Assembly (NCBI RefSeq): GCF_024138165.1
Contig: NZ_CP100001.1
Coordinates: forward strand, 434,001-498,000
Length of the DNA stretch: 64,000 bases
Direction: 5' to 3'
Source of the DNA: Halorussus vallis
Lineage (GTDB): Archaea; Halobacteriota; Halobacteria; Halobacteriales; Haladaptataceae
Below the pieces are notes generated by a model that had not been told where the DNA came from, made no database searches, and was given only the letters and a program-made list of their open reading frames with translations. Within the stretch, counting starts at the first letter, position 1; the number at the start of each line of letters is the position of its first letter. The translations under genes were made by a program, and so were the position numbers. Shown here piece after piece: positions 2,437-23,796 of this stretch.

Positions 2437-2480
2437 TCTGCTTATCGAGGCTAACCGGCGACTACTACCGACTACCGGCC

Positions 2481-2509
2481 GCGGAGTCGGACCGACGGTC
2501 CAACTCCGC
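2481..2509 (-). terminator. Imperfect hairpin 3' of alcohol dehydrogenase
   Basis: GCGGAGT C GGACC pairs with GGTCC A ACTCCGC around a GAC loop (12 pairs, one mismatch), about 85-112 nt past the stop of the dehydrogenase gene. It may mark the transcript end. The evidence is structural only. Confidence 0.3.
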
Positions 2510-2592
2510 GACCCGCTCTACTCCGAGACGGCGCAGTCGCGGTCGGGTCGCATTCACAGTCGCGGTCCCGGTAGCGGCCGGCGTGCCGGGCC

Positions 2593-3702
2593 TCAGAACT
2601 CGGTGACGACCTCGACCCCGACCGTGCCGTAGTCGTCCATCGCGGCGAGGCGGTCGGGCACGTCGGCGAGCGCGACCTCCCGGGTCACCAGGTCGGCGGG
2701 CGAGACGGTGCCGCGCTCGACCATCCGGAGGAGTTCGTCGTAGCGGGTCGGCGGCATCCCGCGCGAGCCGTGGAAGGTGATCTCCCAGCGGGTCATCGCG
2801 TCGGTCGGGAGCGACACCTCCCCGCGCTCCTCGTCGGTCGTCAGGCCCAACTGGACGTGCTGGCCCCGCGGTCGGAGGCAGTCGACGGAGTTGCGGCACG
2901 TCTCGGCCGTCCCGAGCGCGTCGACGGAGACGTGCGCGCCGCCCGAGTCGGTCGACGGCGCTCGGCTTCCGCTCCGGGCGCCCTCGCCGTCGGTTCCGGT
3001 CAGCAGGCGAATCGCGTCGGGGACGCCGCCGGGTTCGGCGGCGTTGACCGTCTCGTCGGCGCCGAGTTCGCGGGCTTTCGCCAGTTTCTCCTCGGTGATG
3101 TCGACCGCGACGACGTTCGCGCCGAGCGCGTCGGCGATATGTACCGCGGACAGGCCGACCCCGCCGCAGCCGTGGACCGCCACCCAGTCGCCGGAGGTGA
3201 GGTCGGCGCGGTGGGCCAGCGCGTGGTAGGCCGTCGAGAACCGACAGCCCAGCGCGGCCATCTCGGTCGCCGAGACGCCCCGGGGGAGCGCGACCGCGTT
3301 GTAGTCGGCGTAGGGGATGTGGACGCGCTCGGCGAACGCGCCGGGGGCGTCGGCCTCGAAGCCGAGCGCGATGCCGTCCGTACAGACGTTGCCGTGGCCG
3401 TTCCGGCAGTACTCGCAGTCGCCGCGCCCGAGGTTGAACGGGACCGCGACCCGGTCGCCCTCGCGGAACCGGTCGACGGCCGACCCGACCGCGACAACTC
3501 GGCCGGCGGGTTCGTGGCCGAGAATCTGGCCCGCGGGCACCTGGTCGTCGGCCCACTCGCCGTGGCCCTTCCAGGCGTGCCAGTCGGACCGGCAGACGCC
3601 GCAGGCTTCGGTTTCGATCACGACGCCATGGTCAGCGAGGTCGGGTTCGGGGACGTCCTCGACTGCGAGGTCGCCGTAGTCGCGCAGCACTGCCGCTTTC
3701 AT
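2593..3702 (-). CDS. Zinc-dependent alcohol dehydrogenase (MDR family)
   Basis: 369 residues, a medium-chain dehydrogenase that oxidises alcohols or reduces aldehydes with NAD(P). Catalytic zinc ligands are Cys37 (CGVCRSD), His63 (GHEPAG) and the Cys of LGCRFST. The Rossmann motif is GCGGVGLSA. The structural-zinc loop has only three of four cysteines: Cys96, Cys99 and Cys107 are spaced normally, but position 93, where the first should be, is Arg. A low-complexity insert (DGEGARSGSRAPSTDSGG, about residues 240-258) interrupts the nucleotide-binding domain, and its DNA forms a hairpin (2957-2982). The ATG at 3702 gives a canonical MKAAVLRDYG start. Substrate unknown. Confidence 0.9.
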   Translation of the reverse strand: MKAAVLRDYGDLAVEDVPEPDLADHGVVIETEACGVCRSDWHAWKGHGEWADDQVPAGQILGHEPAGRVVAVGSAVDRFREGDRVAVPFNLGRGDCEYCRNGHGNVCTDGIALGFEADAPGAFAERVHIPYADYNAVALPRGVSATEMAALGCRFSTAYHALAHRADLTSGDWVAVHGCGGVGLSAVHIADALGANVVAVDITEEKLAKARELGADETVNAAEPGGVPDAIRLLTGTDGEGARSGSRAPSTDSGGAHVSVDALGTAETCRNSVDCLRPRGQHVQLGLTTDEERGEVSLPTDAMTRWEITFHGSRGMPPTRYDELLRMVERGTVSPADLVTREVALADVPDRLAAMDDYGTVGVEVVTEF

Positions 3703-4451: not shown

Positions 4452-6065
4452 ATGACGGCCGGCGACGACCCCGTCGAGGGCGACATCGCACCGGAGGGGC
4501 CGACGCTCGACCCCGACTCCGAGCAGTCGGACTTCGTCGAGTACGGCATCGACGACAAGCCACCGCTCGGCGAGTCCGTTCTGCTGGGGTTCCAGCACTA
4601 CCTGACGATGATTGGCGCGACGGTCGCCATCCCGCTCGCGCTCGCGGGCGCACTCGGGATGTTCGAGGCCGCGCCCGGCCAGGTCGGACGGCTCATCGGG
4701 ACGTTCTTCGTCGTCTCGGGTATCGCAACACTCGCTCAGACGACCATCGGGAACCGCTACCCCATCGTGCAGGGTGGCACCTTCTCGATGCTCGCGCCCG
4801 CGCTCGCCATCATCGGCGTGCTCTCGACGCAGGGCGTCGGCTGGCAGGGGATGTTACAACACCTGATGGGCGCGGTCATCGTGGCCGGCCTCGTCGAGGT
4901 GCTCATCGGCTACTTCGGCGTGATGGGTGCGTTGAAGCGGTACATGAGCCCCATCGTCATCGCGCCGACCATCGCACTCATCGGCCTGGCGCTGTTCAGC
5001 GCGCCCCAGATTACGGACCCGAACCTCTCGGCTCCGGGGACCGGCCAGAACTGGTGGCTGGTCGGGCTGACGCTCGTGCTCATCGTCGCCTTCTCGCAGT
5101 ATCTCGACACCTACAACCGCGCCTTCCGGCTGTTCCCGGTACTACTCGGCATCAGCACCGCGTGGATTATCGCGGCCGTCCTGTCGGTCGCCGGCGTGTA
5201 CGCCTCGGGGTCGGTCAGCTACGTCGACCTCTCGTCGGTCGCCAGCGCGTCGCTCATTCAGCCCATCTACCCCTTCCAGTGGGGGATGCCCGACTTCCGG
5301 CTCTCGTTCATCATCGGGATGGTCGCCGGGATGCTAGCGTCGGCAATCGAGAGCTTCGGCGACTACCACTCGGTCGCGCGGATGGCCGGGCGGGGCGCGC
5401 CGAGCAAGAAGCGCATCGACCACGGCATCGGTATGGAGGGCCTCGGAAACGCCTTCGCCGGTATCATGGGCACAGGTAACGGCTCGACATCCTACACCGA
5501 GAACGTCGGCGCCATCGGCATCACCGGCGTCGCCAGCCGTCACGTCGTCCAGATCGGCGCCGTCGTGATGGTCGTCGCGGGGTACGTCGGCTACGTCGGC
5601 CAACTGTTCGCGACCATCCCCGAACCCATCGTCGGCGGACTCTACCTCGCGATGTTCGGCCAGATCGTCGCAGTGGGCCTCTCGCAACTGCAGTTCGTGG
5701 ACCTCGACAGCAACCGGAACGTGTTCATCGTGGGCTTCGCACTGTTCGCCGGCCTCGCCATCCCCGGCTACATGGGCGCGGTCGGCGGCGCCGACGCGTT
5801 CCAGCAGGGGATGAGCAACGTCGCCGTCCTCGGGCCGATCCTCGGCTCCGAACTCGTCTCGACGACGCTGTTCGTCATCGGCGGAACCGGGATGGCGGTC
5901 GGCGGCATCGTCGCGTTCTTCCTCGACAACACCATCGACGGGACCCGCGAGGAGCGCGGTCTCGTCGCCATGAAGGAGATGTCCGAGGACGACAGCGACT
6001 TCCAGTCGTTCTGGGACCGCTTCGGCGGGTCCGAACCGGAAGAACCCGCGCCGCGGGCCGACTGA
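4452..6065 (+). CDS. NCS2-family nucleobase (uracil/xanthine) permease
   Basis: 537 residues from the ATG at 4452, with about 12-14 membrane segments. This is a nucleobase:cation symporter-2 of the UraA/PbuX family, importing uracil, xanthine or a related base. Supporting sequence includes the amphipathic entry GFQHYLTMIGATVAIP, the TM1/TM3 region VQGGTFSML and the substrate-helix motifs AIESFGDYHS and GTGNGSTSYTENVG, typical of the family. An in-frame GTG at 4377 would add 25 residues, but those codons (AGA, AAA, TAT, CAT) and their His/Tyr/Arg content do not match the acidic N-terminus, so 4452 is preferred. It stands alone with its own promoter. Confidence 0.93.
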   Translation: MTAGDDPVEGDIAPEGPTLDPDSEQSDFVEYGIDDKPPLGESVLLGFQHYLTMIGATVAIPLALAGALGMFEAAPGQVGRLIGTFFVVSGIATLAQTTIGNRYPIVQGGTFSMLAPALAIIGVLSTQGVGWQGMLQHLMGAVIVAGLVEVLIGYFGVMGALKRYMSPIVIAPTIALIGLALFSAPQITDPNLSAPGTGQNWWLVGLTLVLIVAFSQYLDTYNRAFRLFPVLLGISTAWIIAAVLSVAGVYASGSVSYVDLSSVASASLIQPIYPFQWGMPDFRLSFIIGMVAGMLASAIESFGDYHSVARMAGRGAPSKKRIDHGIGMEGLGNAFAGIMGTGNGSTSYTENVGAIGITGVASRHVVQIGAVVMVVAGYVGYVGQLFATIPEPIVGGLYLAMFGQIVAVGLSQLQFVDLDSNRNVFIVGFALFAGLAIPGYMGAVGGADAFQQGMSNVAVLGPILGSELVSTTLFVIGGTGMAVGGIVAFFLDNTIDGTREERGLVAMKEMSEDDSDFQSFWDRFGGSEPEEPAPRAD

Positions 6066-6826: not shown

Positions 6827-8146
6827 GTGCCCTCCAGACTCCCCCGCAGACGGTTCCTCGGCGGCTTCGCCGGCGTCGGCGCCGCGAGTTACTCCGGCTA
6901 CCGGTTCCTCCCCGCGACGGCCCTGCCGGACTCGGTTCTCGGCGTCCGTATCGAACGAATCGACGTCCCGGCGGTCGACACCTCGCTGGCGGTCGCGCCC
7001 GACGCGCTCGCGTCGGCGCGCGACCACCTCCGCGACGTCGTCGACCGCGCGGAGTCGGCGTGGGCGAACGTCGACGACTCGGACGTCTCCGGCGAAACCG
7101 AGGAGTTCGACCGCTCGCTCGAGAGCACCCTCGACGGCGCCAGGAAGAAGCTCTCGGCGACGAAGGACGCCGAACCGACCACGGAGGCGCTGAAGGAAGT
7201 CCGGTACGGCGTCAACCGTGGGACGTGGTCGCTCGCCGCCGCGAAGGCCATCTCGGAGGACTACGAGGCCGACGCCCTCCGCGAGCGGTCGGAGGCGCTC
7301 TTCCGCGACGCGAACGACTTCGTCGACGCCACGTCCTACGACGTCGCCGACCCGCGCCGAGGTCTGGCGTACCTCTACCGGACCGAGCGGGCGGTCCACT
7401 TCGCCCGGATGAGCGCCCACGGCGGCACCTACTTCTCGGGCGAGTCGGTCGGCGAGTCCGAGTACGACCACCGCGAGGCCGTCGAAGCTATCCGCGGCGC
7501 GATAGAGGGCCGACGCTGGCTCGGCGACGCGAGGGCCGTCTACGACGCCCACCGGTCGAACCTCGCCGACGCGGAGAACACGACCGACCTCCGAGCGCAC
7601 CTCGACCGGACGTGGCGGGACTTCGCCGAGCGCATCGACGGCCTGCTCCCCGACCGAGAGACGGTCGTCGAACGGTACCTCACCGACGGCGAGGGGGCGC
7701 GCGACAGGGCGGCGAACGAACTGTTCAACAACGGCTACTCCGGGGCCGACGACGCCTCCCCGCCGACCCGAACCCTCCGCAGGGGCCTGCTCGCGCTCGC
7801 GGCGGTCGAACACGCCAAAGCCCTCCAGCACGCCCGCGGGTTCCGGTCGGCGATGGACGCGCTCTACCGGGCTTTCTCGGACAATTCGGTGAATCTAGCG
7901 CGCGCGGAGCGGACCAAGCGAACCGCGGTGAGGCGACTGCGGACCCGCCTCGACGGGTCGAACGACCCCCTCACCCGGGAACTGCTGGCCCGACCCCGCG
8001 AGGAGATAGTCATCGGCGACTGGCCGCTCGGGCTCTCGCCGACGTTCGACTCGGAGTACCCCGCCGCGGAGGCCTACGCGATGTACCTCCTCGCGTCGGA
8101 GAACGTCCGCCACACCGCCGACGTTCGGCGGCTACTGCTCCCCTGA
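6827..8146 (+). CDS. Tat-signal helical protein, function unknown
   Basis: 439 residues from GTG at 6827. The N-terminus carries a twin-arginine motif (RRRFLGGFAGVGAASY), so it is probably exported. The rest is almost entirely predicted helix, rich in Ala, Arg, Asp and Glu, with repeated ERA/DRA-type heptads, suggesting a helical-bundle extracytoplasmic protein. No catalytic motif is seen. An AAAATATTT element at about 6785-6793 would start transcription a dozen bases before the GTG. No neighbour suggests a role. Confidence 0.75.
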   Translation: MPSRLPRRRFLGGFAGVGAASYSGYRFLPATALPDSVLGVRIERIDVPAVDTSLAVAPDALASARDHLRDVVDRAESAWANVDDSDVSGETEEFDRSLESTLDGARKKLSATKDAEPTTEALKEVRYGVNRGTWSLAAAKAISEDYEADALRERSEALFRDANDFVDATSYDVADPRRGLAYLYRTERAVHFARMSAHGGTYFSGESVGESEYDHREAVEAIRGAIEGRRWLGDARAVYDAHRSNLADAENTTDLRAHLDRTWRDFAERIDGLLPDRETVVERYLTDGEGARDRAANELFNNGYSGADDASPPTRTLRRGLLALAAVEHAKALQHARGFRSAMDALYRAFSDNSVNLARAERTKRTAVRRLRTRLDGSNDPLTRELLARPREEIVIGDWPLGLSPTFDSEYPAAEAYAMYLLASENVRHTADVRRLLLP

Positions 8147-8272
8147 CGGCCGGGCGGCGCGTCCGTTGACTGCGGGCAGAACCGGCGGTACGAACCGCCG
8201 TCTCCGCGCCTACTTTCACTTTCACTCTCCAGTATACGCCCCCTTATCTCCTCGCACCTCCAAGGACGGTCG

Positions 8273-9286
8273 ATGGCAGCAACAGAGAAACTCGACGTGC
8301 TCCCAGGAGTCGGACCCGCCACCGAAGAGAAACTCAGAGAAGCCGGCTACGACTCGTACGCCTCGCTCGCGGTCGCCAGCCCCGGCGAACTCTCCAACAC
8401 CGCCGACGTCGGCGAATCGACCGCCGCCGACATCGTCCAGGCCGCCCGCAAGGAGGCCGACGTCGGGAAGTTCGAGACCGGCACGGAGGTCCTCCGGCGC
8501 CGCGGCGAAATCGGCAAACTCAGCTGGGGCGTCCCCGAGGTCGACGACCTCCTGGGGGGTGGCGTCGAAACCCAGTCGATCACCGAGGTGTACGGCGAGT
8601 TCGGTGCCGGCAAGTCCCAGGTCACCCACCAGCTCGCGGTCAACGTCCAGCTTCCCCGCGAACACGGCGGGGCGGAGGGAAGCGCCATCTTCGTCGACAG
8701 CGAGGACACCTTCCGGCCCGAGCGCATCGACGACATGGTCCGCGGCCTCCCCGAGGAGGTCAAGCACGACGCGATGGCCCTCCACCAGGTCCGAGACGAG
8801 GACGAACTGCTGGAATCGGTCTTGGAGAACATCCACGTCGCGAAGGCGTTCAACTCCAACCACCAGATGCTGCTGGCGGAGAAGGCCGACGAACTCGTCA
8901 AGGAGCAAGCCGACTCGGAGTGGCCGGTTCGGCTGGTCTGCGTCGACTCGCTCACCGCCCACTTCCGGGCCGAGTACGTCGGCCGCGGGAAACTCGCCGA
9001 GCGCCAGCAGAAGCTCAACAAGCACCTCCACGACCTGGTGCGAGTCGGGAGCCTCCACAACGTCGCGGTGCTGGTGACCAACCAGGTCCAGTCGAACCCC
9101 GACGCGTTCTTCGGCGACCCGACCAAGCCCATCGGCGGTAACATCCTTGGACACACCTCGACGTTCCGGATGTACCTCCGGAAGTCCAAGGGGACCATGC
9201 GCATCGTCCGACTGGTCGACTCGCCGAACCTCGCCGACGGCGAAGCGGTCATGCGTGTCGAGGACGGCGGCCTGAAGCCCGAGTGA
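8273..9286 (+). CDS. radA: DNA repair and recombination protein RadA
   Basis: 337 residues, the archaeal Rad51/RecA recombinase that forms ATP-dependent filaments on single-stranded DNA for strand exchange in homologous recombination. It has an N-terminal helix-hairpin-helix domain ([17 protein letters not shown]), Walker A GEFGAGKS at 108-115, Walker B LVCVDS with Asp225, and the L2/ATP-cap region with LVTNQV and [11 protein letters not shown]. It is full length and has no intein. The TATA-like TTATC at 8244-8248 sits 25 nt before the ATG, consistent with a leaderless transcript. Confidence 0.98.
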
Positions 9287-9548
9287 ACCGCCCCGGTCGC
9301 CCCCGTCGGAACCGCTCGAACCTCCGCCGCGGCGCGTGACCGCCGAGTAACTGGCGGACACGGCCCGTCACCCCCGATCGGAAGCTTTTCGCCCGGATTT
9401 CGACGACTCGACGCGGCCGCGTCGATTCCGAGCATCCCGCGATTCTCCGGCAGTTAGGGTTACTTCCCGACGAGATGGTGCCCGAGTCGGACCGGCCCCG
9501 CCGCTCCGTCCAGAAAGTACTTATCGGAGTGGTTAGAATCTCGACAGC
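9287..9548. other. Intergenic spacer after radA
   Basis: About 260 bases with no convincing frame on either strand. A TATA-like TACTTATC at about 9517-9525 serves the small gene that starts at 9549. Nothing else stands out. Confidence 0.4.
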
Positions 9549-9822: not shown

Positions 9823-11487
9823 ATGACCGACCCGGACCTCGACAGATTCACCTCCCGACGCTCGACCGTCCACGCCCCGAACGGACTGGTCGCCACGAGC
9901 CAACCGCTCGCCGCCGAGGCGGGCGTCCAAATCATGCGCGAGGGCGGCAACGCCTTCGACGCCGCCGTTGCCACCGCCGCGGCGCTCAACGTCGTCGAAC
10001 CAACGAGCACGGGCTTGGGCGGCGACGTGTTCGCGCTCTACCGGACCGCCGACGGAGAGGTCGGCGCGATGCGTTCCTGCGGGGGCGCGCCCGCCGACGC
10101 GACCGTCGAGAACGTCCGGCGGGCGCTCCGGGAGGCAGACGACGTCTCGGCGTACTACCCCGAGTCGCGGGGGTACGCGACCGACGACGTCGAGGACGCC
10201 GGGATGCCGTTCCTCGGCCCGCACGCCGTGACGGTGCCCGGAACCGCCCGCGGGTGGGAGGCCACGGTGCGGGAACTCGGCCGACTGACGCTCGCCGACG
10301 CGCTCGCACCCGCCATCGAGTACGCCACGGAGGGGTATCCCGTCTCGGAGGTCATCGCCTCCCACTGGACCGGCGCCGAGGACCTCTTCTCCGAGGCGCA
10401 CGCCCGCGAGGCCTACCTCAAGGACGGTCGCGCGCCCCGCGTCGGCGAGCGGATGCGCCTGCCGCAACTCGGCGAGACGATGCGGACCGTCGCCGAGGAG
10501 GGCGCCGACGTCGTCTACGAGGGCGACATCGCCGAGCAGATAGCCGGAGAGGTCCAGCGCCACGGCGGGTTCATGACCGTCGACGACCTCGCCGACTTCG
10601 AACCCGAGTTCGTGGACCCTGTCTCGACCACCTACAACGGCGCGGAGATATACGAACTCCCGCCGAACAACCAGGGACTGGTCGCCCTGGAGGCGCTCAA
10701 CATCGCCGAGGAACTCGGCGCGGGCGACCACCCGCTCGACTCGTCCGAGCGCATCCACTACTTCGCGGAGGCGACCAAGCGGGCGTTCCACGACGGGCAC
10801 CGCTACATCACCGACCCCGAGTACGAGGAGATTCCGCCGCTGTCCTCGAAGCAGTACGCGCGCGAGCGGGCCGCGGAAGTCGGCGAGACCGCCTCCGACG
10901 TCTCGTTCGGCGTGCCGGATGCCAACGCCGAGGACGCAGACACCGTCCTGCTGACCGCGGCCGACGCCGAGGGCAACGTCGTCTCCTACATCAACTCCCG
11001 ATTCGCGGGCTTCGGGTCGGGGCTGGTCGCCGGCGACACCGGCATCGCCCTGCAGAACCGCGGGGCGTCGTTCTCGCTCGACCCCGACCACCCCAACAGC
11101 CTCGAACCCGGCAAGCGCCCGTTCCACACCCTGATTCCCGCCGTGGCGAAGTTCGCCGAGGACGACTGGGCGGCCTTCGGCGTGATGGGCGGCTACATGC
11201 AACCGCAGGGTCACGTGCAGGTGATATCGAATCTCGTCGACTACGATATGCCGCTGCAGGCCGCGCTCGACCACCCGCGCTGGCGCTACCGCGAAGACGG
11301 TACGCTGGCCGTCGAGGGCCGGGTCGACGGCGCGGTACAGTCGAAGCTCGCCCGGATGGGCCACGACGTCCGCGTCCTCCCGCCGGTGATGTTCGGCGGC
11401 GCGCAGGTGACGCGACTCGACGAGCGCGAGGACGTCATCTCGGGCGCGACCGAACCCCGGAAGGACGGCACCGCCGCGGGGTTCTGA
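9823..11487 (+). CDS. ggt: Gamma-glutamyltransferase
   Basis: 554 residues. Gamma-glutamyltransferases are Ntn-hydrolases that cleave themselves and then transfer or hydrolyse gamma-glutamyl groups. Haloarchaea use gamma-glutamylcysteine rather than glutathione, which may be the substrate. The nucleophile after autoproteolysis should be Thr374 in EDADTVLLT. Other hallmarks are REGGNAFDAAVA near the N-terminus, STGLGGDVF, and FGSGLVAGDTGI..QNRG downstream of the nucleophile. No signal peptide is visible, so it is probably cytoplasmic. A TTTTAA element near 9796-9801 lies about 25 nt before the ATG. Confidence 0.95.
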   Translation: MTDPDLDRFTSRRSTVHAPNGLVATSQPLAAEAGVQIMREGGNAFDAAVATAAALNVVEPTSTGLGGDVFALYRTADGEVGAMRSCGGAPADATVENVRRALREADDVSAYYPESRGYATDDVEDAGMPFLGPHAVTVPGTARGWEATVRELGRLTLADALAPAIEYATEGYPVSEVIASHWTGAEDLFSEAHAREAYLKDGRAPRVGERMRLPQLGETMRTVAEEGADVVYEGDIAEQIAGEVQRHGGFMTVDDLADFEPEFVDPVSTTYNGAEIYELPPNNQGLVALEALNIAEELGAGDHPLDSSERIHYFAEATKRAFHDGHRYITDPEYEEIPPLSSKQYARERAAEVGETASDVSFGVPDANAEDADTVLLTAADAEGNVVSYINSRFAGFGSGLVAGDTGIALQNRGASFSLDPDHPNSLEPGKRPFHTLIPAVAKFAEDDWAAFGVMGGYMQPQGHVQVISNLVDYDMPLQAALDHPRWRYREDGTLAVEGRVDGAVQSKLARMGHDVRVLPPVMFGGAQVTRLDEREDVISGATEPRKDGTAAGF

Positions 11488-11515
11488 GCGCGGGTCGGCG
11501 GCCGCTCGTTCGCGC

Positions 11516-11698
11516 CTACTCGTCGACTTCCCCGCCGTCGTCGATGGTTATCTTGGTCGGTTCGCGTTCCGGTCGCTCCCGGCGGCTCCGTTTGGCGCGT
11601 CGGGACCCGAGGACGTAGCCGATAGCGAACAGGAGCGCCAGCAGGGCGAGTCGAAACGACGGCGAACCGTCTCCGGCGGCGTCTGTCTGGAGCGTCAC
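11516..11698 (-). CDS. Small single-TM protein
   Basis: 60 residues from GTG at 11698. A short polar N-terminus is followed by one membrane helix (about 14-31, FRLALLALLFAIGYVLG), a basic stop-transfer (RRAKRSRRERPERE) and an acidic tail. It is convergent with gamma-glutamyltransferase, 28 bases away. The composition fits haloarchaeal coding sequence, but function is unknown. Confidence 0.6.
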   Translation of the reverse strand: MTLQTDAAGDGSPSFRLALLALLFAIGYVLGSRRAKRSRRERPEREPTKITIDDGGEVDE

Positions 11699-11762
11699 GA
11701 ACTAGCAGACGAGCGTCGGCGACTTTTCGGTTGCGGTGGCGCGAATCCCGCGGCGGTTTCGG

Positions 11763-12134
11763 TCACCCCTCGTCGCGACGCACCTGGTCGAGGAACCGAC
11801 GGAGCGGGTCCTCGATGGTGATTTCGGTCACCTTCCCCTCCTCGGAGTCGTAGGTGAGCGTCCCGGCCGCCTCGAGTTTTGGCAGGTGGTTGTGGTGGAG
11901 CGTGGTCGCGATCTCGGTCCGCTTCAGCATCGACACCTGGTCCGGAGGCTGTTGGAACTCCCGGCCGGCCACCTCGTCGGTGAGGCGTTCGAGCGGGACC
12001 GGTTCCGGCTGACCGTCGAGGCAGGCGAGAACGTGGCGCCTGTAACGGTCGCTCAAAAGCGAGAAGGTTTCGTCGACTCTGAGACTCGTTTCGTCGCGGG
12101 TCGCGTTCGCGTCCGCGACCGAGTCCTCGGCCAT
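11763..12134 (-). CDS. DUF7344-type winged-helix regulator
   Basis: 123 residues. The core FSLLSDRYRRHVLACLDG ... LHHNHLPKLEAAGTLTYD follows the pattern of haloarchaeal DUF7344 proteins, small winged-helix DNA-binding domains. The N-terminal 20 residues are Asp/Thr-rich and likely disordered. No sensory domain is fused, so the signal, if any, is unknown. It lies downstream of sufB on the same strand but is separated from it by a strong hairpin, so it is probably a separate unit. Confidence 0.8.
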   Translation of the reverse strand: MAEDSVADANATRDETSLRVDETFSLLSDRYRRHVLACLDGQPEPVPLERLTDEVAGREFQQPPDQVSMLKRTEIATTLHHNHLPKLEAAGTLTYDSEEGKVTEITIEDPLRRFLDQVRRDEG

Positions 12135-12253
12135 ACGTACCGTATGCTCTTTGCCGAGTAAACGGCTATCGCATTACTATTAATGCAGTACAAAAGTCGC
12201 GGACGCGGTTCACCCCCCGAACGGCGAACTCCGACGAAACCGACCGGCTGAGT

Positions 12254-12294
12254 GCTCGCCGGGACGGCCGGCATCGCCGGCCGTCCCGGCGAGC
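12254..12294 (-). terminator. 19-bp perfect hairpin 3' of sufB
   Basis: Bases 12254-12272 pair perfectly with 12276-12294 around an ATC loop, 47-87 nt past the sufB stop. It is one of the strongest stems in the window. Placement argues for transcript 3'-end formation or protection. No clear U-tract follows, so a classical intrinsic terminator is not assured. Confidence 0.55.
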
Positions 12295-12340
12295 GTCAAG
12301 GCCCCGACGCGCGTCGAGGTTCGGCGTCTCGAACGCTCGG

Positions 12341-13768
12341 CTATCCGAGACTGCCTTCCATTTCGAGTTCGATGAGTCGGTTGAGTTCGACGGCGTACTC
12401 GATGGGTAGCTCTTCGGTGATGGGTTCGATGAACCCGGAGACGATCATCTGCTTGGCGTCGTCGTCGTCAAGTCCGCGACTCTGGAGGTAGAAGACGTCC
12501 TCGTCGCCGATCTTGCCGACGGTGGCCTCGTGGGCGACGTCGACGCGGCTCTCGTCGATCTCCATGTACGGCATGGTATCGGACGTCGACTCGTTGTCGA
12601 ACATCAGCGCGTCGCACTCGACGCTCGTGCTAGAGTGTTCTGCGCCCTCGGCGATGTGGACGAGGCCGCGGTAGTTGGTGCGGCCGCCGTCCTTCGAGAT
12701 GCTCTTGGACTCGATGGTGGAGTTGGTGCGGGGCGCGTTGTGGTAGACCTTTGCGCCGGTGTCGATGTCTTGACCCTCGCCCGCGAACGCGATGCTGATG
12801 TGGTTCGCAGATGCGCCGCGACCTTTGAGGATGGAACACGGATACAGCATGGTGGCCTTCGAGCCCATCGAGCCCGAAACCCACTCCATGCGGCCGCCCG
12901 AGTCGACCAAGGCGCGCTTGGTGTTGAGGTTGAACGTGTTCTTCGACCAGTTCTGCACCGTCGAGTACTGGACGTGAGCGTCCTCCCTGACGAACACTTC
13001 CACACCGCCGCTGTGGAGGTTGTGGCTGCCGTACTTGGGCGCGGAACAGCCCTCGATGTAGTGGACCTCCGAACCTTCCTCGGCGATGATGAGGGTGTGT
13101 TCGAACTGGCCCATCCCTTCCGAGTTCATCCGGAAGTACGCCTGGACGGGCATCTCGACCGTGACGTCCTCGGGGACGTAGACGAACGAGCCGCCGGACC
13201 ACACTGCACCGTGGAGCGCGGCGAACTTGTTGTCGCTCGGCGGGACGCAGGAGGTCATGAAGTGCTCTTTCACCAGGTCCTCGTGTTCCTGCACCGCTTC
13301 GTCCATGTTACAGAACACGACGCCCTTCTCCTCCCACTGCTCCTGCATGTTCTGGTAGACGACTTCGGACTCGTACTGGGCGCCCACGCCCGACAGCGCT
13401 TTCCGCTCTGCCTCGGGGATGCCGAGTTTCTCGAAGGTGTCCTGAATCTCCTCGGGGAGGTCGTCCCAGCTATCGGCGCCCTCGCGCTTGTCGACGTCGG
13501 GCCGGATGTACGGGACGATCTCCTCGACGTCCAACTGGGTGAGGTCGGGTTGGCCCGGCCAGTCGGTCGGCAGCGGCATGTTCTGGTAGTGCTCGAGCGC
13601 GCGGAGGCGCCGCTGGAGCATCCATTCCGGTTCGCCTTTGTCCTCGCTGATGAGCCGCACCACTTCCTCGGTGAGGCCCTTGTCCGATTTCAGCGCCGCG
13701 CTCTCCTCCTTCTTGAACGCGAAACGCTCCTCGGTGTCGGTTTCTTGGAGTTCTTCGTCGGTACTCAT
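12341..13768 (-). CDS. sufB: Fe-S cluster assembly scaffold SufB
   Basis: 475 residues. SufB is the scaffold on which SufBC2D assembles [4Fe-4S]/[2Fe-2S] clusters. The long beta-helix core carries the family signatures GAVWSGGSFVYVP, EGCSAPKYG, HSGGVEVFV, NLNTKRALV and the C-terminal SRGLDDDDAKQMIVSGF. The N-terminus is the usual extended helical arm. In most haloarchaea sufB sits with sufC and sufD. Here neither flank encodes them (tatA upstream, an HTH gene downstream), so partners must be elsewhere or this is a second copy. The start ATG at 13768 is well supported. Confidence 0.96.
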   Translation of the reverse strand: MSTDEELQETDTEERFAFKKEESAALKSDKGLTEEVVRLISEDKGEPEWMLQRRLRALEHYQNMPLPTDWPGQPDLTQLDVEEIVPYIRPDVDKREGADSWDDLPEEIQDTFEKLGIPEAERKALSGVGAQYESEVVYQNMQEQWEEKGVVFCNMDEAVQEHEDLVKEHFMTSCVPPSDNKFAALHGAVWSGGSFVYVPEDVTVEMPVQAYFRMNSEGMGQFEHTLIIAEEGSEVHYIEGCSAPKYGSHNLHSGGVEVFVREDAHVQYSTVQNWSKNTFNLNTKRALVDSGGRMEWVSGSMGSKATMLYPCSILKGRGASANHISIAFAGEGQDIDTGAKVYHNAPRTNSTIESKSISKDGGRTNYRGLVHIAEGAEHSSTSVECDALMFDNESTSDTMPYMEIDESRVDVAHEATVGKIGDEDVFYLQSRGLDDDDAKQMIVSGFIEPITEELPIEYAVELNRLIELEMEGSLG

Positions 13769-18978: not shown

Positions 18979-19938
18979 TCAGTTGTAAAGTCCGATGGCC
19001 TTGATCTGCTCCTGGTAGCGGTTGCGGATGGTGACCTCGGTGACCTGCGCGACGTCGGCGACCTCGCGCTGGGTCTTCTTCTCGTTGCAGAGTAGCGATG
19101 CGGCGTAGATGGCCGCCGCCGCGTACCCCGTCGGCGACTTGCCCGACAACAGGCCCTGCTCGGTGGTCACGTCGATGATCTCGTTGGCCTTCGACTGTAC
19201 CTCCTCGGAGAGGTCGAGTTCGGAACTGAACCGCGGGACGTACTTCTTCGGGTCGACCGGTTCCATCTCCAGGCCGAGTTGCTGGGAGACGTACCGATAC
19301 GTCCGGCCGATCTCCTTGCGCTCGACCCGGCTGACTTCCGCGACCTCTTCGAGGCTTCGCGGGATGCCCTCCTTCCGACAGGCGGCGTAGAGCGCGCTGG
19401 TGGCGACGCCCTCGATGGAGCGCCCCCGGATGAGGTCCTCCTTGAGCGCCCGCCGGTAGATGACGCTGGCTATCTCCTGTACAGACCGGGGGACGCCGAG
19501 CGCCGAGGCCATCCGGTTGAGTTCGCTGAGCGCGAACTGGAGATTGCGCTCGCCCGCGTCCTTCGTCCGGATGCGCTCCTGCCATTTGCGCAGACGGTGC
19601 ATCTGGCTCCGCTTCTTCGAGGAGATAGAACGGCCGTAGGCGTCCTTGTCCTTCCAGTCGATGGTCGTGGTCAGCCCCTTGTCGTGCATCGTGTTCGTGG
19701 TCGGCGCGCCCACCCGGGACTTCTTGTTGCGCTCGGCCGTGTTGAACGCGCGCCACTCGGGTCCGCGGTCCACGTTGCGTTCCTCGACCACCAGTCCGCA
19801 CTCCTCGCACACGAGTTCGCTCCCGCCAGCGTCGGAGACGACCGCCTCGGATTCGCACTCGGGACACATCCGCTCGCCTTCGGACGCCCCGGTCTCTTCG
19901 GTCTGTTCACGCTCGCGCTGGCGAGTGGACCCAGTCAT
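18979..19938 (-). CDS. tfb: Transcription initiation factor TFB (TFIIB homologue)
   Basis: 319 residues from ATG at 19938. TFB bridges TBP-TATA and RNA polymerase and sets the start site. The N-terminal zinc ribbon has Cys25, Cys28, Cys44 and Cys47. The B-finger/linker GPEWRAFNTAERNKKSRVG follows, then two cyclin folds. The recognition helix near the C-terminus (TQREVADVAQVTEVTIRNRY) contacts the BRE. Haloarchaea carry several TFBs, and which one this is cannot be told. A TTTATC box at about 19967-19973 gives a leader of only a few bases. It is divergent from the gene at 20133. Confidence 0.97.
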   Translation of the reverse strand: MTGSTRQREREQTEETGASEGERMCPECESEAVVSDAGGSELVCEECGLVVEERNVDRGPEWRAFNTAERNKKSRVGAPTTNTMHDKGLTTTIDWKDKDAYGRSISSKKRSQMHRLRKWQERIRTKDAGERNLQFALSELNRMASALGVPRSVQEIASVIYRRALKEDLIRGRSIEGVATSALYAACRKEGIPRSLEEVAEVSRVERKEIGRTYRYVSQQLGLEMEPVDPKKYVPRFSSELDLSEEVQSKANEIIDVTTEQGLLSGKSPTGYAAAAIYAASLLCNEKKTQREVADVAQVTEVTIRNRYQEQIKAIGLYN

Positions 19939-20132
19939 AAGTTTGAGATAGTAGGAGTCATTGGTAGATAAACCCTCGGAGAGTACCGGCAATTTCTGCA
20001 CGACCCTTCGACGAGTCCCGAACAGCGCGTCGAGACGTCGATATACGGGCGATTCCAGCGGATTCGCTACGGGGGTATCGCTCCGACGGCGGCGGCCGAC
20101 AGTCTCTTCCCGTCCGGACCGAGTCATCCAAT

Positions 20133-20420
20133 ATGGCATCGTCGCGCCCGACGGTCTTCGCGGTGGACGAATACGAGTCGATGGCGTTCGACGCCGTGCT
20201 CGTGCGTGAGCGCACCGTCGTCTGCCTCGACGGCACCGACAGCGCCCGCGTGATTCCGCTCGACAAGGTGAACCACGTCGACGCCGACCCCGACCTGATG
20301 CTGGTCGAACGCGAGATTCCGGAGTCGTTCTACGGCGGCGGCGACTACGGCTTCGTCGTCCTCGACGAGTACCCCGACCTCCGCGAGCACCTCGAAGACC
20401 TCGAAGCCGAACAGTACTGA
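20133..20420 (+). CDS. Small conserved protein of unknown function
   Basis: 95 residues: alternating strands (TVFAVDEYESMAFDAVLVRERTVVCLDG, ARVIPLDKVNHVDAD) then a negatively charged helix (EYPDLREHLEDLEAEQY). The fold may be a small PH- or SH3-like barrel. Divergent from tfb with starts about 195 bases apart. Followed at once by a 50-bp perfect palindrome. No functional clue. Confidence 0.65.
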   Translation: MASSRPTVFAVDEYESMAFDAVLVRERTVVCLDGTDSARVIPLDKVNHVDADPDLMLVEREIPESFYGGGDYGFVVLDEYPDLREHLEDLEAEQY

Positions 20421-20485: not shown

Positions 20486-20687
20486 ACCGAGCATCTCGTC
20501 GGATTCGTCTTCTCGCCGGTCCGTCGAAGCTCCGATTCGTAATTCTTGCACCTAGGGCCACCCCGTCGCTCAGAAACCAGTTCCGACTCCGACTTAGATT
20601 AGTTCAGTTACCAACTAAAATACCTATAATTACTGTCAATATCCTTCGAAAAGTTTCACGATGTTGGCAGTGAAAGGATGAAGCGAA

Positions 20688-20822
20688 ATGTCCGACACCA
20701 CCGTCGCAGACTACATCGCACAGAATCCGAGAATGGCCGGCGTCCTCTTCACCATCTGCTTGCTCCTCACCCAAGCTAGTAATGCGGCCGCTGCGAATCT
20801 TTCGACGAACGCTGGCCCCTAA
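20688..20822 (+). CDS. 44-residue hydrophobic peptide beside the CHAT module
   Basis: ATG at 20688 encodes 44 residues: a polar N-terminus (MSDTTVADYIAQNPRMAG), one hydrophobic helix (VLFTICLLLTQASNAAAA) and a short polar end. It resembles the small haloarchaeal peptides known as DUF7503, often found near such genes; I did not verify this. An AAAGGA element lies about 8 nt before the ATG and a CTATAATTA box at about 20624-20632, both in AT-rich DNA unlike the surroundings. Its TAA (20820-20822) directly abuts the stop of the convergent CHAT gene. Confidence 0.65.
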   Translation: MSDTTVADYIAQNPRMAGVLFTICLLLTQASNAAAANLSTNAGP

Positions 20823-22967
20823 CTATAAGTCTTCGACGGCAAGTTCCGTGCTCCAACGTAGTTCTCCGTTGAGCCGGACTGGAATCTCTTCAAGATTCAG
20901 GAAACGAGTGAGTTCGTCCTTCTGCATCGAGAACTCCTTATTGACTCCCGCGCTCAGGAAATAAGAGTTATTCTGCTCGATATGGGGCATCACTAAACTT
21001 CCCAGCCCACACTGACTCGTAGGATAGGTATTCATCCGAAGCACGAATCCGTCCCCCTCGCGCTCGATCTCACAGAGGTTCGGCGTCCCGCTCTCCGGTT
21101 GGGCGATGGACAACCCGCCGTCGCCGACCACGATGTACTGACCGCCGACGATACTCTCCCCGCGGGCGATGTTGAGCGCCGCCTGGAGCGGGAACCCGGC
21201 GTTGAGGAGTCGGGCCATCGTCCGGCCGATGCGCACCGCGCCGCTGTTGATGACGTCGCTCAGCGTGACGACGCCGCCGATGCTCCCCGCTTCGAGCAGT
21301 TCCATCCCCTGGGTGTACGACTGACACGCGTTGAGCAGGAACGCGTCGACGGCCACCGCGTCGAGGCTCGTCGCGTCGAACTTCCCGTCGGCGCACTCGA
21401 ACCCCTCGCGGTCGATGTGCCCGATGTAGTGGAGGAAATCTGTCGGGGAGGTCAGGACATCCCGGAGTTCGTCGGTGGTCAAATCGTGGTGGACCGTGAC
21501 GTCGAACGGGAGTTCCTCGCGAGAGCCGTAGTCGGCGTACACCGCGTCGCTCTCCTCGCCCATCTGGGCGTCGTTGCAGACGACCGTGATGTCGATGTCG
21601 CCCTCCGTCGGTGTCCGACCCAGGCGGTTGCGGAACGCCGTGGTCGTCACCTTGTTCGCGCCGACGGGCGTCCCCTCGCCGATCCACGTCTGCTCGCGAG
21701 AGTTCGCCGACGTCGGCTGTACGAACGTCTCCTCGGTCGCCGGTGCCTGACTGGTGCTGCGCGTGAACGTCTCCGCGTCCGCCTCCACCTCTGTCTGGGT
21801 CCGAAGGAACTCCCCGACGGCGTCCGCCTCCTCGGTCCCGCCGGTCACCGTCGTCGCCTCCGGGGTCCGGACGACCGCCAGGTCCTCGACGATGAACGGC
21901 AGCGTCTCGATGCTCGTCGGAGTCGGTTCGACGTGGGAGGTCAGCTTCCACTCCGGAATCTCGTCCTCGACGACGGCGAACGGCACCGCGAGGTACGCTT
22001 CGAGTTGCTCGGCCAGCGGCGCGTCGTACAGCGCCGCGAAGTCGAGGTCGACCTTCGATTCGACGGCCTGCCGCTCGTGGAGTTCGACCTGATAGTACCC
22101 TTCCGTCCGCGTCAGGCAGTCGAGGAAGAACGTCTGCTTGAGGACGCGTTCGACGTCCTCCTCGAACCGACGGCCCGCGGCGAGCGGATACTCGAATTCG
22201 GCGTCGGTGACGATTCGCGGGCGGTCGCCCTCGACCAGCGTGGCACCGAGGTAGTAGGCCAGCGGCGCGGCGACGTAGACCGCGTGGTACGTCGGCGGAA
22301 TCTCGATGCGGACGCCGGTGTCGGGAGCCGCCAACCCGTCGGGGATGTCGAGGGTATCTCCGAGTTCGATGGTCGGCGGATGGCCGCGCAGCGACGGGAA
22401 GGACCGCTCGCAGGTCGTCGTCTTGAGCGCGGAGCCGAACGTCGAGACGGCGGCCATCATGTCGGTCGGGTCGGTCGTCGTCGTGACGGTCGCCGCCGGA
22501 TGTTCGTGGTGCGAGCGGGCACCCAGGAGCACCTCCGTCTCCCCGTCGAATTCGAGGCGGGTCCGTTCGGCGTCGGACGCGACGGTCAGCGAGCCGCGTA
22601 CCTGCAGATAGAGCTTGATGGGGGCGCTGAGTTCGATGCTGTAGACTCCGTCTGGGAACTCCTCGTAGGCGAAGTGCTCGGCCTCGGCGAGCATCTCGCC
22701 CGTCCGGTCGCGGACGTAGACCGCGACGACCGTCGGGAGCGTCAGCGTCTCCGTGGTGACCGCGACGCCCGCGTCGGCGGGGAAGAGAAACTCGCCGGTG
22801 TCCACCGGCGTGGGGGTGACCGGGCGGGAGGTAGCGACCGAGTACCGGTGTCGCTCGATGGAATCGATGACGGTGACACCGTCGCCGTCGGCGGCGGCCT
22901 CGAACGAGATGTTGCCGACTCGCCGGTCGTCGGCGTACTCGGCCGGTTCGGTACCCAGACTGTTCAT
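20823..22967 (-). CDS. CHAT-domain (caspase-like) protease
   Basis: 714 residues from ATG at 22967. The C-terminal third is a CHAT domain, a caspase/separase-clan cysteine protease. His517 in HYIGHID and Cys548 in LLNACQSYTQG form the predicted dyad, separated by 31 residues. Following segments (GGVVTLSDVINSGAVRIG, AALNIARGESIVGG) fit the family core. The N-terminal 450 residues are mostly beta with no TPR or recognised sensor domain, so activation is unknown. The gene lies downstream of a degenerate RecA/KaiC-like gene on the same strand, with a 103-base gap containing two short T runs on the transcribed strand. A role in regulated proteolysis, signalling or defence is inferred from the family, not shown. 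Confidence 0.88.
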   Translation of the reverse strand: MNSLGTEPAEYADDRRVGNISFEAAADGDGVTVIDSIERHRYSVATSRPVTPTPVDTGEFLFPADAGVAVTTETLTLPTVVAVYVRDRTGEMLAEAEHFAYEEFPDGVYSIELSAPIKLYLQVRGSLTVASDAERTRLEFDGETEVLLGARSHHEHPAATVTTTTDPTDMMAAVSTFGSALKTTTCERSFPSLRGHPPTIELGDTLDIPDGLAAPDTGVRIEIPPTYHAVYVAAPLAYYLGATLVEGDRPRIVTDAEFEYPLAAGRRFEEDVERVLKQTFFLDCLTRTEGYYQVELHERQAVESKVDLDFAALYDAPLAEQLEAYLAVPFAVVEDEIPEWKLTSHVEPTPTSIETLPFIVEDLAVVRTPEATTVTGGTEEADAVGEFLRTQTEVEADAETFTRSTSQAPATEETFVQPTSANSREQTWIGEGTPVGANKVTTTAFRNRLGRTPTEGDIDITVVCNDAQMGEESDAVYADYGSREELPFDVTVHHDLTTDELRDVLTSPTDFLHYIGHIDREGFECADGKFDATSLDAVAVDAFLLNACQSYTQGMELLEAGSIGGVVTLSDVINSGAVRIGRTMARLLNAGFPLQAALNIARGESIVGGQYIVVGDGGLSIAQPESGTPNLCEIEREGDGFVLRMNTYPTSQCGLGSLVMPHIEQNNSYFLSAGVNKEFSMQKDELTRFLNLEEIPVRLNGELRWSTELAVEDL

Positions 22968-23070
22968 AGTAGCTGTCCCCTCTCGAAGCAGCGGCAAAAA
23001 CCCATCGGATAGTGGGGAAAAACACCGCGGATACCGGTACGCGACTCGTCACGTGACTGTCGGTGCGTCA

Positions 23071-23796
23071 TCATACTGTCGAGGGGGTGAGCCACTGAGA
23101 CGTGATGTTCTCGTCTCGCAGGTGCCACCGCTGTTGGGCCCGGTCGTCGACGATGCGGAGTTCGATGATCGCGTCGAACAGCGGGGCGAACTGCGCGACC
23201 AGTTCCGAATCGTAGTCGACGGGCAGGTGGAAGTGGGCCATCGCCTGCACGCTCCGGATGCGGCCGACGAGGACGTGGAGGAAACGGAACACCTCCTCGC
23301 GCTCGTAATCCGCGACCAGCGCCGAGAGCGAGTCGAAGCAGACGCGAAGCTCGGAGGGCGCGAGCTCCACGGCGATCTCCTCGAACGCTTCGATCTCGCG
23401 GGAGATGGCGATGCCGAGGTCGGCCAACCGGTCGCTCTCGACGCTCACCGTCGGGATTCCGTCACTCGATTGGTGGGACGGCGACGCCGTCGCGGCGCTC
23501 CGCGATTTGGCGGTCCAGGTGACGAGCGTCGTCCTGTCGGACCGAAGCCGCTCGTGGGACGCCGAGAGGCGGTCGGTGACCGTCGGGAGGGCGGGGTCCG
23601 TCGAGACGAACAGTCGGCGTCTGTCTCTCGCGGTGACGTCACCGAGCATCCGGTGGCACGCCTGCGTTGCGGCGGAGTCGGGGACGCTGCCCACGACGAG
23701 GAGGGAGGACCCGTTCTGCTTCAGATTCTGAAGCGTCGAGACGAATCGCTGGCGCTCGGTGTCGGTGAGTCCGCTCCCCTCGTCGTGAGACACCAT
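23071..23796 (-). CDS. Degenerate RecA/KaiC-like protein upstream of the CHAT protease
   Basis: 241 residues. The pattern SLLVVGSVPDSAATQ near residues 31-45 occupies the P-loop position but lacks GK(S/T). LRVCFDSLSALV further on matches a Walker-B strand. A helix-rich middle and a final beta segment (IIELRIVDDRAQQRWHLRD) fit KaiC/GvpD/RAD55-like folds of the haloarchaeal DUF7504 type. ATP hydrolysis is unlikely; it may sense or scaffold. A TATA element (TTTATCGCG on this strand, about 23818) makes it nearly leaderless. It precedes the CHAT gene, suggesting a functional pair. Confidence 0.7.
   Translation of the reverse strand: MVSHDEGSGLTDTERQRFVSTLQNLKQNGSSLLVVGSVPDSAATQACHRMLGDVTARDRRRLFVSTDPALPTVTDRLSASHERLRSDRTTLVTWTAKSRSAATASPSHQSSDGIPTVSVESDRLADLGIAISREIEAFEEIAVELAPSELRVCFDSLSALVADYEREEVFRFLHVLVGRIRSVQAMAHFHLPVDYDSELVAQFAPLFDAIIELRIVDDRAQQRWHLRDENITSQWLTPSTV

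Follow-up and report, generated by a model that had tools for sequence, protein, structure and literature searches.

A predicted CHAT-fold cysteine protease and a small DUF7503 peptide are encoded as a recurrent convergent gene pair in haloarchaea

Gene content of the locus

The window analysed here is a stretch of 64,000 nucleotides from the Halorussus vallis genome, in which the gene of a CHAT-fold protease is flanked upstream by a DUF7504 gene and faces, at its 3' end, the gene of a tiny hydrophobic peptide (Table 1). The reading frames of the peptide (20688-20822, forward strand) and the protease (from 20823, reverse strand) thus leave zero bases between the two stop codons, and both the coordinates and this spacing, as given in a preliminary description made from the sequence alone, were correct on re-check. 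With an alternative TTG start, the protease reading frame spans 20823-22997 on the reverse strand, and the ATG at 22967 is the likely start. The DUF7504 gene ends approximately 0.1 kb from the protease start.

Table 1. Features of the protease-peptide locus (positions within the window)
Feature	Positions	Strand	Evidence and remarks
Promoter-like AT-rich element of the peptide gene	20616..20661	+	Begins 72 nt 5' of the peptide ATG; position-fixed motif
DUF7503 small peptide, 44 aa	20688..20822	+	PF24335, E=6.4e-20; family column statistics; dN/dS; signal-peptide-like core; variable tail ending Gly-Pro
CHAT-fold cysteine protease (predicted), 714 aa from ATG	20823..22967	-	His517, Cys548; AlphaFold2 pLDDT 84.3; fold Z; dyad
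N-terminal beta domain of the protease, residues 18-200	22368..22916	-	Candidate sensor; separate model, pLDDT 85.1; weak fold match
DUF7504 RecA/KaiC-like protein, 241 aa, without P-loop lysine	23071..23796	-	PF24336, E=1.3e-58; same direction as the protease, upstream

Fold and active site of the protease

The His517/Cys548 dyad (numbering from the ATG), which had been described as intact, proved fully conserved, in 53 of 53 relatives aligned and in all seven paralogues of the same genome. In a test of the sequence profile only, the protease scored 14.6 bits (E=0.023) against the Pfam CHAT family PF12770, under the cut-off of 24, and its sequence profile had no credible relative in the PDB. 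Comparison of the AlphaFold2 model gave a Z of 18.6 between the C-terminal half and SAVED-CHAT (8tl0), 18.1 to both separase (5fby) and gingipain R (4ief), and about 12-14 to TPR-CHAT/Csx29 of Craspase. Foldseek matches of the catalytic domain, with E down to 1.8e-07, pointed to the caspase-haemoglobinase fold, and the second look at the PDB (VIA) was restricted to folds on Foldseek's own list, so that others may also match. For the modelled structure, fold comparison and the dyad settle the assignment to the CHAT cysteine proteases, with the Pfam score below its cut-off, and proteolytic activity is predicted. When modelled on its own, the N-terminal beta domain gave a best Z of 8.6, to galactose-mutarotase-like/supersandwich domains of the sugar-enzyme type, with YidC also among the weak matches; this domain is a candidate sensor. 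A literature search on DdvA/CHAT found nothing relevant.

Pairing of protease and peptide across haloarchaea

Relatives of the protease were detected in 131 of the 145 haloarchaeal genomes sampled, with seven copies in the genome studied here, and the family is therefore class-wide and not a local oddity. Gene neighbourhoods were compared at 87 protease loci, comprising the seven own copies and 80 external ones, which are the best 80 of 395 relatives and mostly high-scoring copies. A convergent gene for a peptide of 43-48 residues follows 78 of these 87 proteases (72/80 external, 6/7 own), a count in which two external misses are limited by the sequence available (L041, with 117 nt downstream, and L082, which is cut) and in which Gly-Pro-ending reading frames without a hydrophobic core (L048, L052 and L033) are scored as misses. 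Applied to 1643 random anchors within these loci, the detector gave six hits, of which one was a genuine partner peptide; the placement of the peptide at the protease stop is thus not due to chance. The stop codons abut exactly in 22 of the 78 pairs and overlap by 4 nt in seven. Gaps reach 126 nt, and displaced peptides occur at L141 and at L147 (the same-strand case, on a contig judged from its length of 97,372 to be that of L058).

Among 150 listed matches to the protease, 127 had a listed DUF7503 partner, and a divergent convergent peptide at four own and 13 further copies brings the paired proteases to 144 of 150. The preliminary description had suggested a neighbourhood survey, with independent occurrence of the genes speaking against a unit. 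Protease and peptide were found to recur together: each of the 150 DUF7503 matches listed has such a protease within approximately 1.5 kb, and none of those listed was found away from one. In 148 cases the two genes are adjacent and convergent, in one they converge at a distance of about 1 kb, and in one they share a strand at 1.4 kb. On the other side of the pair, no peptide at all was present for one own copy (F) or for L156, L157, L165 and L166, all five of which have a DUF7504 gene, nor for four distant non-haloarchaeal relatives used as outgroup, which indicates that the protease can work without the peptide. As far as the literature was searched, the protease-peptide module is undescribed; both DUFs were already in Pfam without a function, and what is new here is DUF7503 as the constant neighbour of a protease.

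The peptide and its promoter

The peptide matched PF24335 (DUF7503) with 70.9 bits against a cut-off of 27. It is truly coding and under purifying selection, with dN/dS values of 0.14 in the core and 0.44 in the tail (206 pairs, which are non-independent) and a third-position excess in the gene. The N-terminal half is strongly conserved ([YF]LxxNP[RK]M..LF). The Pro and Arg/Lys of the 75-peptide table were demanded by the detector and are conserved there by construction; P[RK] is also present in 37 of 37 peptides found independently by profile. Core residues are retained (F in 72, Q in 70 and G in 72 of the 75 peptides) to a greater extent than a plain signal peptide needs. An [AV]xA motif occurs at a fixed position in 59/75 peptides and in a looser form in 72/75. 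It is followed by a variable tail of 7-10 residues, with 71 distinct tails among the 75 peptides and a mean pairwise identity of 16%, compared with 60% for the core. Tails are uncharged in 60 of the 75, and a Gly-Pro end, found in 67 of 78, is frequent but not universal. Judged by sequence pattern only, a signal-peptide pattern and a variable C-terminal segment are thus present in a short precursor, and the core is putatively signal-peptide-like, with [AV]xA as a putative signal-peptidase-type site.

A motif upstream of the peptide gene starts at -72 to -74 relative to the ATG in 56 of 69 non-redundant loci. A promoter score of 14 or more was reached by 44 of the 78 peptide genes, by none of 86 protease operons and by 2 of 893 other genes; the matrix is partly in-sample, 69 of the 78 upstream regions of peptide genes scored having also served to train it. 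On this sequence evidence, the AT-rich leader is a dedicated promoter of the peptide gene, conserved in place across the family. The leader had been noted as unlike the chromosome: its AT-richness is real, and an origin in foreign DNA is rejected in view of the position-conserved, family-wide motif.

The DUF7504 partner

The upstream protein matched PF24336 (DUF7504) with 198.9 bits against a cut-off of 27. Its RecA-like fold is suggested by kinship only, through the paralogue L017, which matches KaiC (E=4.9e-07). The Walker A lysine is absent from the window protein and from the aligned protease-linked copies; in the DUF7504 alignment GK is retained only by L017, which is not beside a protease. 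The reported loss of the P-loop lysine is thus a trait of the family. DUF7504 lies directly upstream of 43 of the 87 proteases, and of the 16 copies in the genome studied here, 12 lie elsewhere than upstream of a protease. A parsimony count on the protease tree gives at least seven changes in DUF7504 presence, four of them forced by well-supported branches (labelled with 40 positives, missing L054, L056 and L082). An obligate triplet is therefore rejected, and of the three-gene unit proposed at the outset, the constant pair of protease and peptide stands with DUF7504 as a looser associate. HalOD1 fusions occur among the DUF7504 partners, and fusions with winged-helix domains among other DUF7504 proteins.

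Proposed function and alternatives

The favoured reading, with a probability of roughly 0.55, is a regulatory module of haloarchaea that consists of two genes and, optionally, a third; in it the peptide serves the protease as a dedicated substrate or ligand, and DUF7504 is an accessory regulator. The peptide would insert into the membrane with its N-terminus inside through the signal-peptide-like core, and the cytoplasmic protease would recognise the conserved N-terminal half, [YF]LxxNP[RK]M..LF. Either the protease would cut the peptide, or the peptide would hold or activate the protease. The variable tail, often freed at the [AV]xA site, may be the specificity-bearing output outside the cell, and DUF7504, in places fused to the output domain HalOD1, may gate the protease where present. 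Membrane export, cleavage and output of the peptide are steps that we infer, and cleavage after the conserved P-[RK] is offered as an idea only. A C-terminus outside the cell would leave the tail unreadable to a cytoplasmic protease, which counts against this explanation. Signalling fits the module better than immunity does, because DUF7504 partners may carry HalOD1, and other DUF7504 copies winged-helix domains.

A bolder and tentative proposal treats the peptide as a precursor from which a secreted archaeal signal of 7-10 residues would be made, usually Gly-Pro-ended and with variable residues specific to lineage and paralogue, the protease being its dedicated processing enzyme or an intracellular effector; if true, archaea would possess a class-wide means of communication through peptides and proteases, with multiple channels. 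Bacteria have convergent peptide-regulator pairs, which favours the related possibility that signal peptidase frees a pheromone-like peptide and the protease acts as intracellular receptor or effector. The conserved core next to diverse, mostly uncharged tails and the [AV]xA site agree with such a secreted signal; however, no receptor domain was recognised, the core is conserved beyond what a signal peptide needs, and the known disk-forming signal of Haloferax, described as a small molecule, withstands proteinase K (PMC12240190). This possibility is considered unlikely. Antisense coupling alone, in which the convergent transcript regulates the protease mRNA and the peptide product is irrelevant, would suit the abutting or overlapping stops and the strong dedicated promoter, but selection at the protein level, the longer gaps and the displaced peptides make it the most improbable of the explanations.

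CHAT and caspase-fold proteases are known effectors of cell death or defence. The hydrophobic peptide and the structural similarity of the protease to Craspase TPR-CHAT and SAVED-CHAT are compatible with a toxin-antidote or regulated cell death pair, in which the peptide would inhibit a harmful protease or be its activated lethal product; yet the module is near-universal and multi-copy, often lies amid housekeeping genes, and includes proteases without a peptide in the same genome and in the outgroup, so that a pair of this kind is improbable. An antiviral defence module, for which the presence of CHAT proteases in bacterial defence systems and the location of some copies on plasmids (in 24 of the 72,556 records for plasmids) might speak, is less probable still, given that the module is multi-copy and present in 131 of the 145 genomes. 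PADLOC gave zero matches for the three window proteins. No recurrent defence family, and only scattered PADLOC matches, appeared among 147 flanking proteins, a selection from 166 counted (L008:8579-8818, L087:5-544 and L088:10019-10315 being among those left out), and no relatives of the module were found in the phage and viral-contig collections searched. The immune unit that had been suggested is rejected as the main reading on these results.

Implications

A caspase-fold protease family of about nine in ten sampled haloarchaeal genomes gains a partner, and therefore a testable substrate or ligand, and two Pfam families without a function are tied to it. The tractable model Haloferax volcanii carries both DUF7503 and DUF7504 in its genome, so that the module can be knocked out. 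In this species, zVAD-FMK inhibits a caspase-like activity for which the 2012 paper (PMC3615174) did not identify the gene; a literature search found no later paper naming the protein, and the CHAT-fold family is a candidate for this orphan activity. As a class, CHAT proteases are not typically Asp-specific. The module is also a gene candidate for archaeal peptide signalling, the quorum-sensing signal of H. volcanii being still unidentified in PMC12240190. A link to the disk-forming signal of that species was rejected as unsupported, because that signal is proteinase K-resistant (PMC12240190); DdfA is described as a HalOD1 protein and not as a member of the families studied here.

Comparison with known systems

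The protease shares the fold of its C-terminal half and the His-Cys dyad with separase, SAVED-CHAT, TPR-CHAT/Csx29 and gingipain R (clan CD). It differs from known CHAT proteases in that no Cas7-11, SAVED or securin partner was seen, in its dedicated convergent peptide, in its score below the Pfam CHAT cut-off, and in the lack of a PDB sequence relative; an N-terminal beta domain takes the place of the TPR of TPR-CHAT. Unlike the CHAT defence systems Craspase, SAVED-CHAT and CHAT-gasdermin, it has neither a PADLOC model match nor a recurrent defence partner. The window proteins score far above the cut-offs of DUF7503 and DUF7504, Pfam entries without a function. Rgg-SHP, Rap-Phr and PatX with HetF are bacterial short-peptide regulatory pairs, and the haloarchaeal pair resembles them in its tiny precursor, hydrophobic core, functional C-terminal end and adjoining regulator gene; the partner here is a protease without a recognised peptide-binding domain, and secretion and sensing are putative. 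In haloarchaea, PMC12893001 describes a protease that cuts a precursor to yield an active peptide (HFX_0892/HlyR4); that enzyme is a serine protease that works outside the cell on a precursor that is secreted, whereas the present locus combines a CHAT protease with an adjacent peptide of 44 residues.

Protease-peptide pairing

The stop codons of the peptide and protease ORFs abut in the window with 0 nt between them, in agreement with the preliminary description. The host is a haloarchaeon with a genome of 5.05 Mb, and neither NCBIfam nor PADLOC assigned any of the three window proteins to a noteworthy family.

Feature coordinates (window positions, or locus positions for the fetched loci L009, L171 and L045)
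Source	Feature	Position	Strand	Remarks
Window	DUF7503 peptide ORF	20688-20822	+	44 residues; Pfam DUF7503
Window	Protease ORF	20823-22997	-	724 residues from ORF start, 714 from ATG at 22967; sub-threshold Pfam CHAT match
Window	DUF7504 ORF	23071-23796	-	241 residues; Pfam DUF7504; upstream protein
Window	TFB transcription factor gene	18979-20139	-	386-aa ORF; adjoins peptide promoter
Window	95-aa ORF	20133-20420	+	No assignment; adjoins peptide promoter
Window	Protease residues 638-676 (724-aa numbering)	20970-21086	-	Weak GspG likeness
L009 (H. vallis)	Protease paralogue	7075-9408	-	
L009 (H. vallis)	Protease paralogue	10983-13034	+	
L171 (genome G012)	Peptide copy	2508-2663	+	
L171 (genome G012)	Tandem peptide copy	2450-2800	+	
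L045 (Haloplanus ruber)	DUF7504, ORF one	4762-5259	+	
L045 (Haloplanus ruber)	DUF7504, ORF two	5743-5889	+	

By searching from -100 to +400 nt around the protease stop for a convergent ATG ORF of 43-48 residues with a P-[RK]-hydrophobic pattern, a peptide could be detected at 78/87 protease genes (72/80 external loci, the best 80 of 395 relatives, and 6/7 H. vallis copies), compared with 6/1643 random anchors in the same loci, one of the six being a genuine partner peptide. The reverse test, from DUF7503 to the protease, is the stronger of the two. DUF7503 is present in 120/145 genomes of the class, and among the 150 matches listed, 128 are convergent with and adjoin a listed protease. The regions of the remaining 22 all contain a protease, which is adjoining and convergent in 20; in one region it is convergent about 1 kb away, and in one it is encoded 1.4 kb away on the strand of the peptide. 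Among the 150 proteases listed, 127 have a listed DUF7503, and 4 from H. vallis and 13 others face a divergent peptide in convergent position; no peptide accompanies H. vallis copy F or those of loci L156, L157, L165 and L166, and one more is a displaced case. Of the triplet in the preliminary description, protease and peptide form a near-constant pair; DUF7504 lies directly upstream of the protease in 43/87 loci.

The two divergent paralogues of L009 fit into a 6-kb stretch, and both are accompanied by a convergent peptide of their own and a nearby DUF7504 gene. The tandem peptides of L171, identical in core and tail, share one protease. L045, in which DUF7504 is split and the peptide was not found, is possibly a decaying module.

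Peptide and promoter

The peptides (75 distinct) begin with a polar, acidic stretch, followed by [YF][LI] at five and four residues ahead of Pro. P-[RK], although imposed by the detector, also occurs in all 37 peptides found by profile. Conserved positions include Gly +4 (68/75), Leu +6 (70), Phe +7 (72), Leu +13 (70), Gln +15 (70) and Gly +17 (72), and [AV]xA occupies a fixed position in 59/75 peptides (72/75 in a looser form). The tail after it has 7-10 residues (nine in 48/75) and ends in Gly-Pro in 64/75, the others ending in TIS, TIR, GI and similar. Variability is greatest in the hexamer preceding the last two residues (2.7-3.2 bits); mean identity is 60% in the core and 16% in the hexamer, and 71/75 tails are distinct. 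With dN/dS of 0.14 for the core and 0.44 for the tail (206 pairs, not independent), the peptide is under protein-level selection. Judged by its sequence, the peptide resembles a precursor destined for secretion or for the membrane whose end has diversified. Conservation of Phe, Gln and Gly goes further than a generic signal peptide would require and suggests a specific partner, for which the protease would be the obvious candidate.

The AT-rich leader noticed earlier corresponds to a position-fixed motif that begins 72-74 nt ahead of the peptide ATG in 56/69 non-redundant loci. A matrix score of at least 14 was reached by 44/78 peptide genes (largely in-sample), 0/86 protease operons and 2/893 other genes; thus, the peptide gene appears to be under the control of a dedicated promoter that is not the one of the protease operon.

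Protease fold and distribution

The AlphaFold2 model of the protease (53 aligned relatives as input) has a mean pLDDT of 84.3, and its predicted C-terminal half groups with CHAT, separase and gingipain R folds (Foldseek, VIA: SAVED-CHAT Z 18.6, separase 18.1, gingipain R 18.1, anti-sigma factor DdvA 16.8, TPR-CHAT/Csx29 about 12-14). The dyad recognized earlier, His517/Cys548, is invariant in 53/53 relatives, as are His513, Cys525, Asp527, Asn546 and Ser550. The N-terminal beta domain, a candidate sensor that was modelled separately (pLDDT 85.1), weakly resembles galactose-mutarotase-like supersandwich domains (best Z 8.6) and the YidC periplasmic domain (Z 7.6). The C-terminal domain also has a weak match to the pseudopilin GspG (Pfam T2SSG E=0.029; PDB profile E=0.57), probably by chance.

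H. vallis carries 7 protease copies. Relatives occur in 131/145 genomes and 51/58 genera of the class, and a search among species genomes found 395 relatives. In a phylum-wide draw, a relative occurred in 23/148 genomes, 19 being H. vallis and its order and 4 another family. No such peptide was found at these 4 loci (L172-L175), so the partnership looks like a haloarchaeal trait; all four contain an ORF of 152 residues at most a few kb away. Plasmid records contain the protease in 24 cases, and the 20 listed are mostly annotated 'hypothetical protein', with one 'CHAT domain-containing protein' and one 'caspase family protein'. No relatives were found in phage records or viral contigs.

DUF7504 and flanking genes

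Parsimony on the protease tree, using a slightly stricter label (40/87), requires 7 gains or losses of DUF7504, of which 4 are imposed by branches with good support. In H. vallis, 12/16 DUF7504 copies do not precede a protease gene. Loss of the P-loop lysine from this RecA/KaiC-like protein, reported earlier for the window copy, extends across the alignment with the sole exception of the L017 copy, which matches KaiC. Some protease-linked copies (L097, L167) carry HalOD1, and other DUF7504 copies carry winged-helix domains. According to PMC10869688 and PMC12240190, HalOD1 is a domain of DdfA, an H. volcanii shape regulator required for the quorum-sensing response. Together with the lysine loss, these fusions point to a role of DUF7504 in signal transduction rather than as an ATPase.

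Among 147 flanking proteins, the recurrent families were Response_reg (10), glyoxalase (8), HalX (7), aminotransferase (7) and TrmB (4), and PADLOC matches were scattered (at most 2 members per family). In Haloferacaceae loci (L054, L070, L050, L035, L045 and similar), gene positions and the family tally suggest a HalX response regulator just past the peptide gene, on its upstream side and with the same orientation.

Proposed role

The peptide, expressed from its own promoter, would enter the membrane through its core, and the protease may bind its conserved N-terminal half as substrate, perhaps cleaving it, or as regulatory ligand. The variable tail, outside, could be the specific output or recognition end, and DUF7504 would gate the protease in about half of the loci. 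We give a probability of roughly 0.55 to the peptide being a substrate or ligand paired with the protease in a signalling role. The stronger reading, a pheromone with its receptor, seems unlikely.

No description of the module was found in searches of the open-licence literature on archaeal CHAT proteins, haloarchaeal orthocaspases or caspase-like proteins, DUF7503/DUF7504 and archaeal peptide pheromones. CHAT proteases and peptide-regulated systems are already known, whereas the class-wide, convergent pairing of a protease with a peptide appears to be new.
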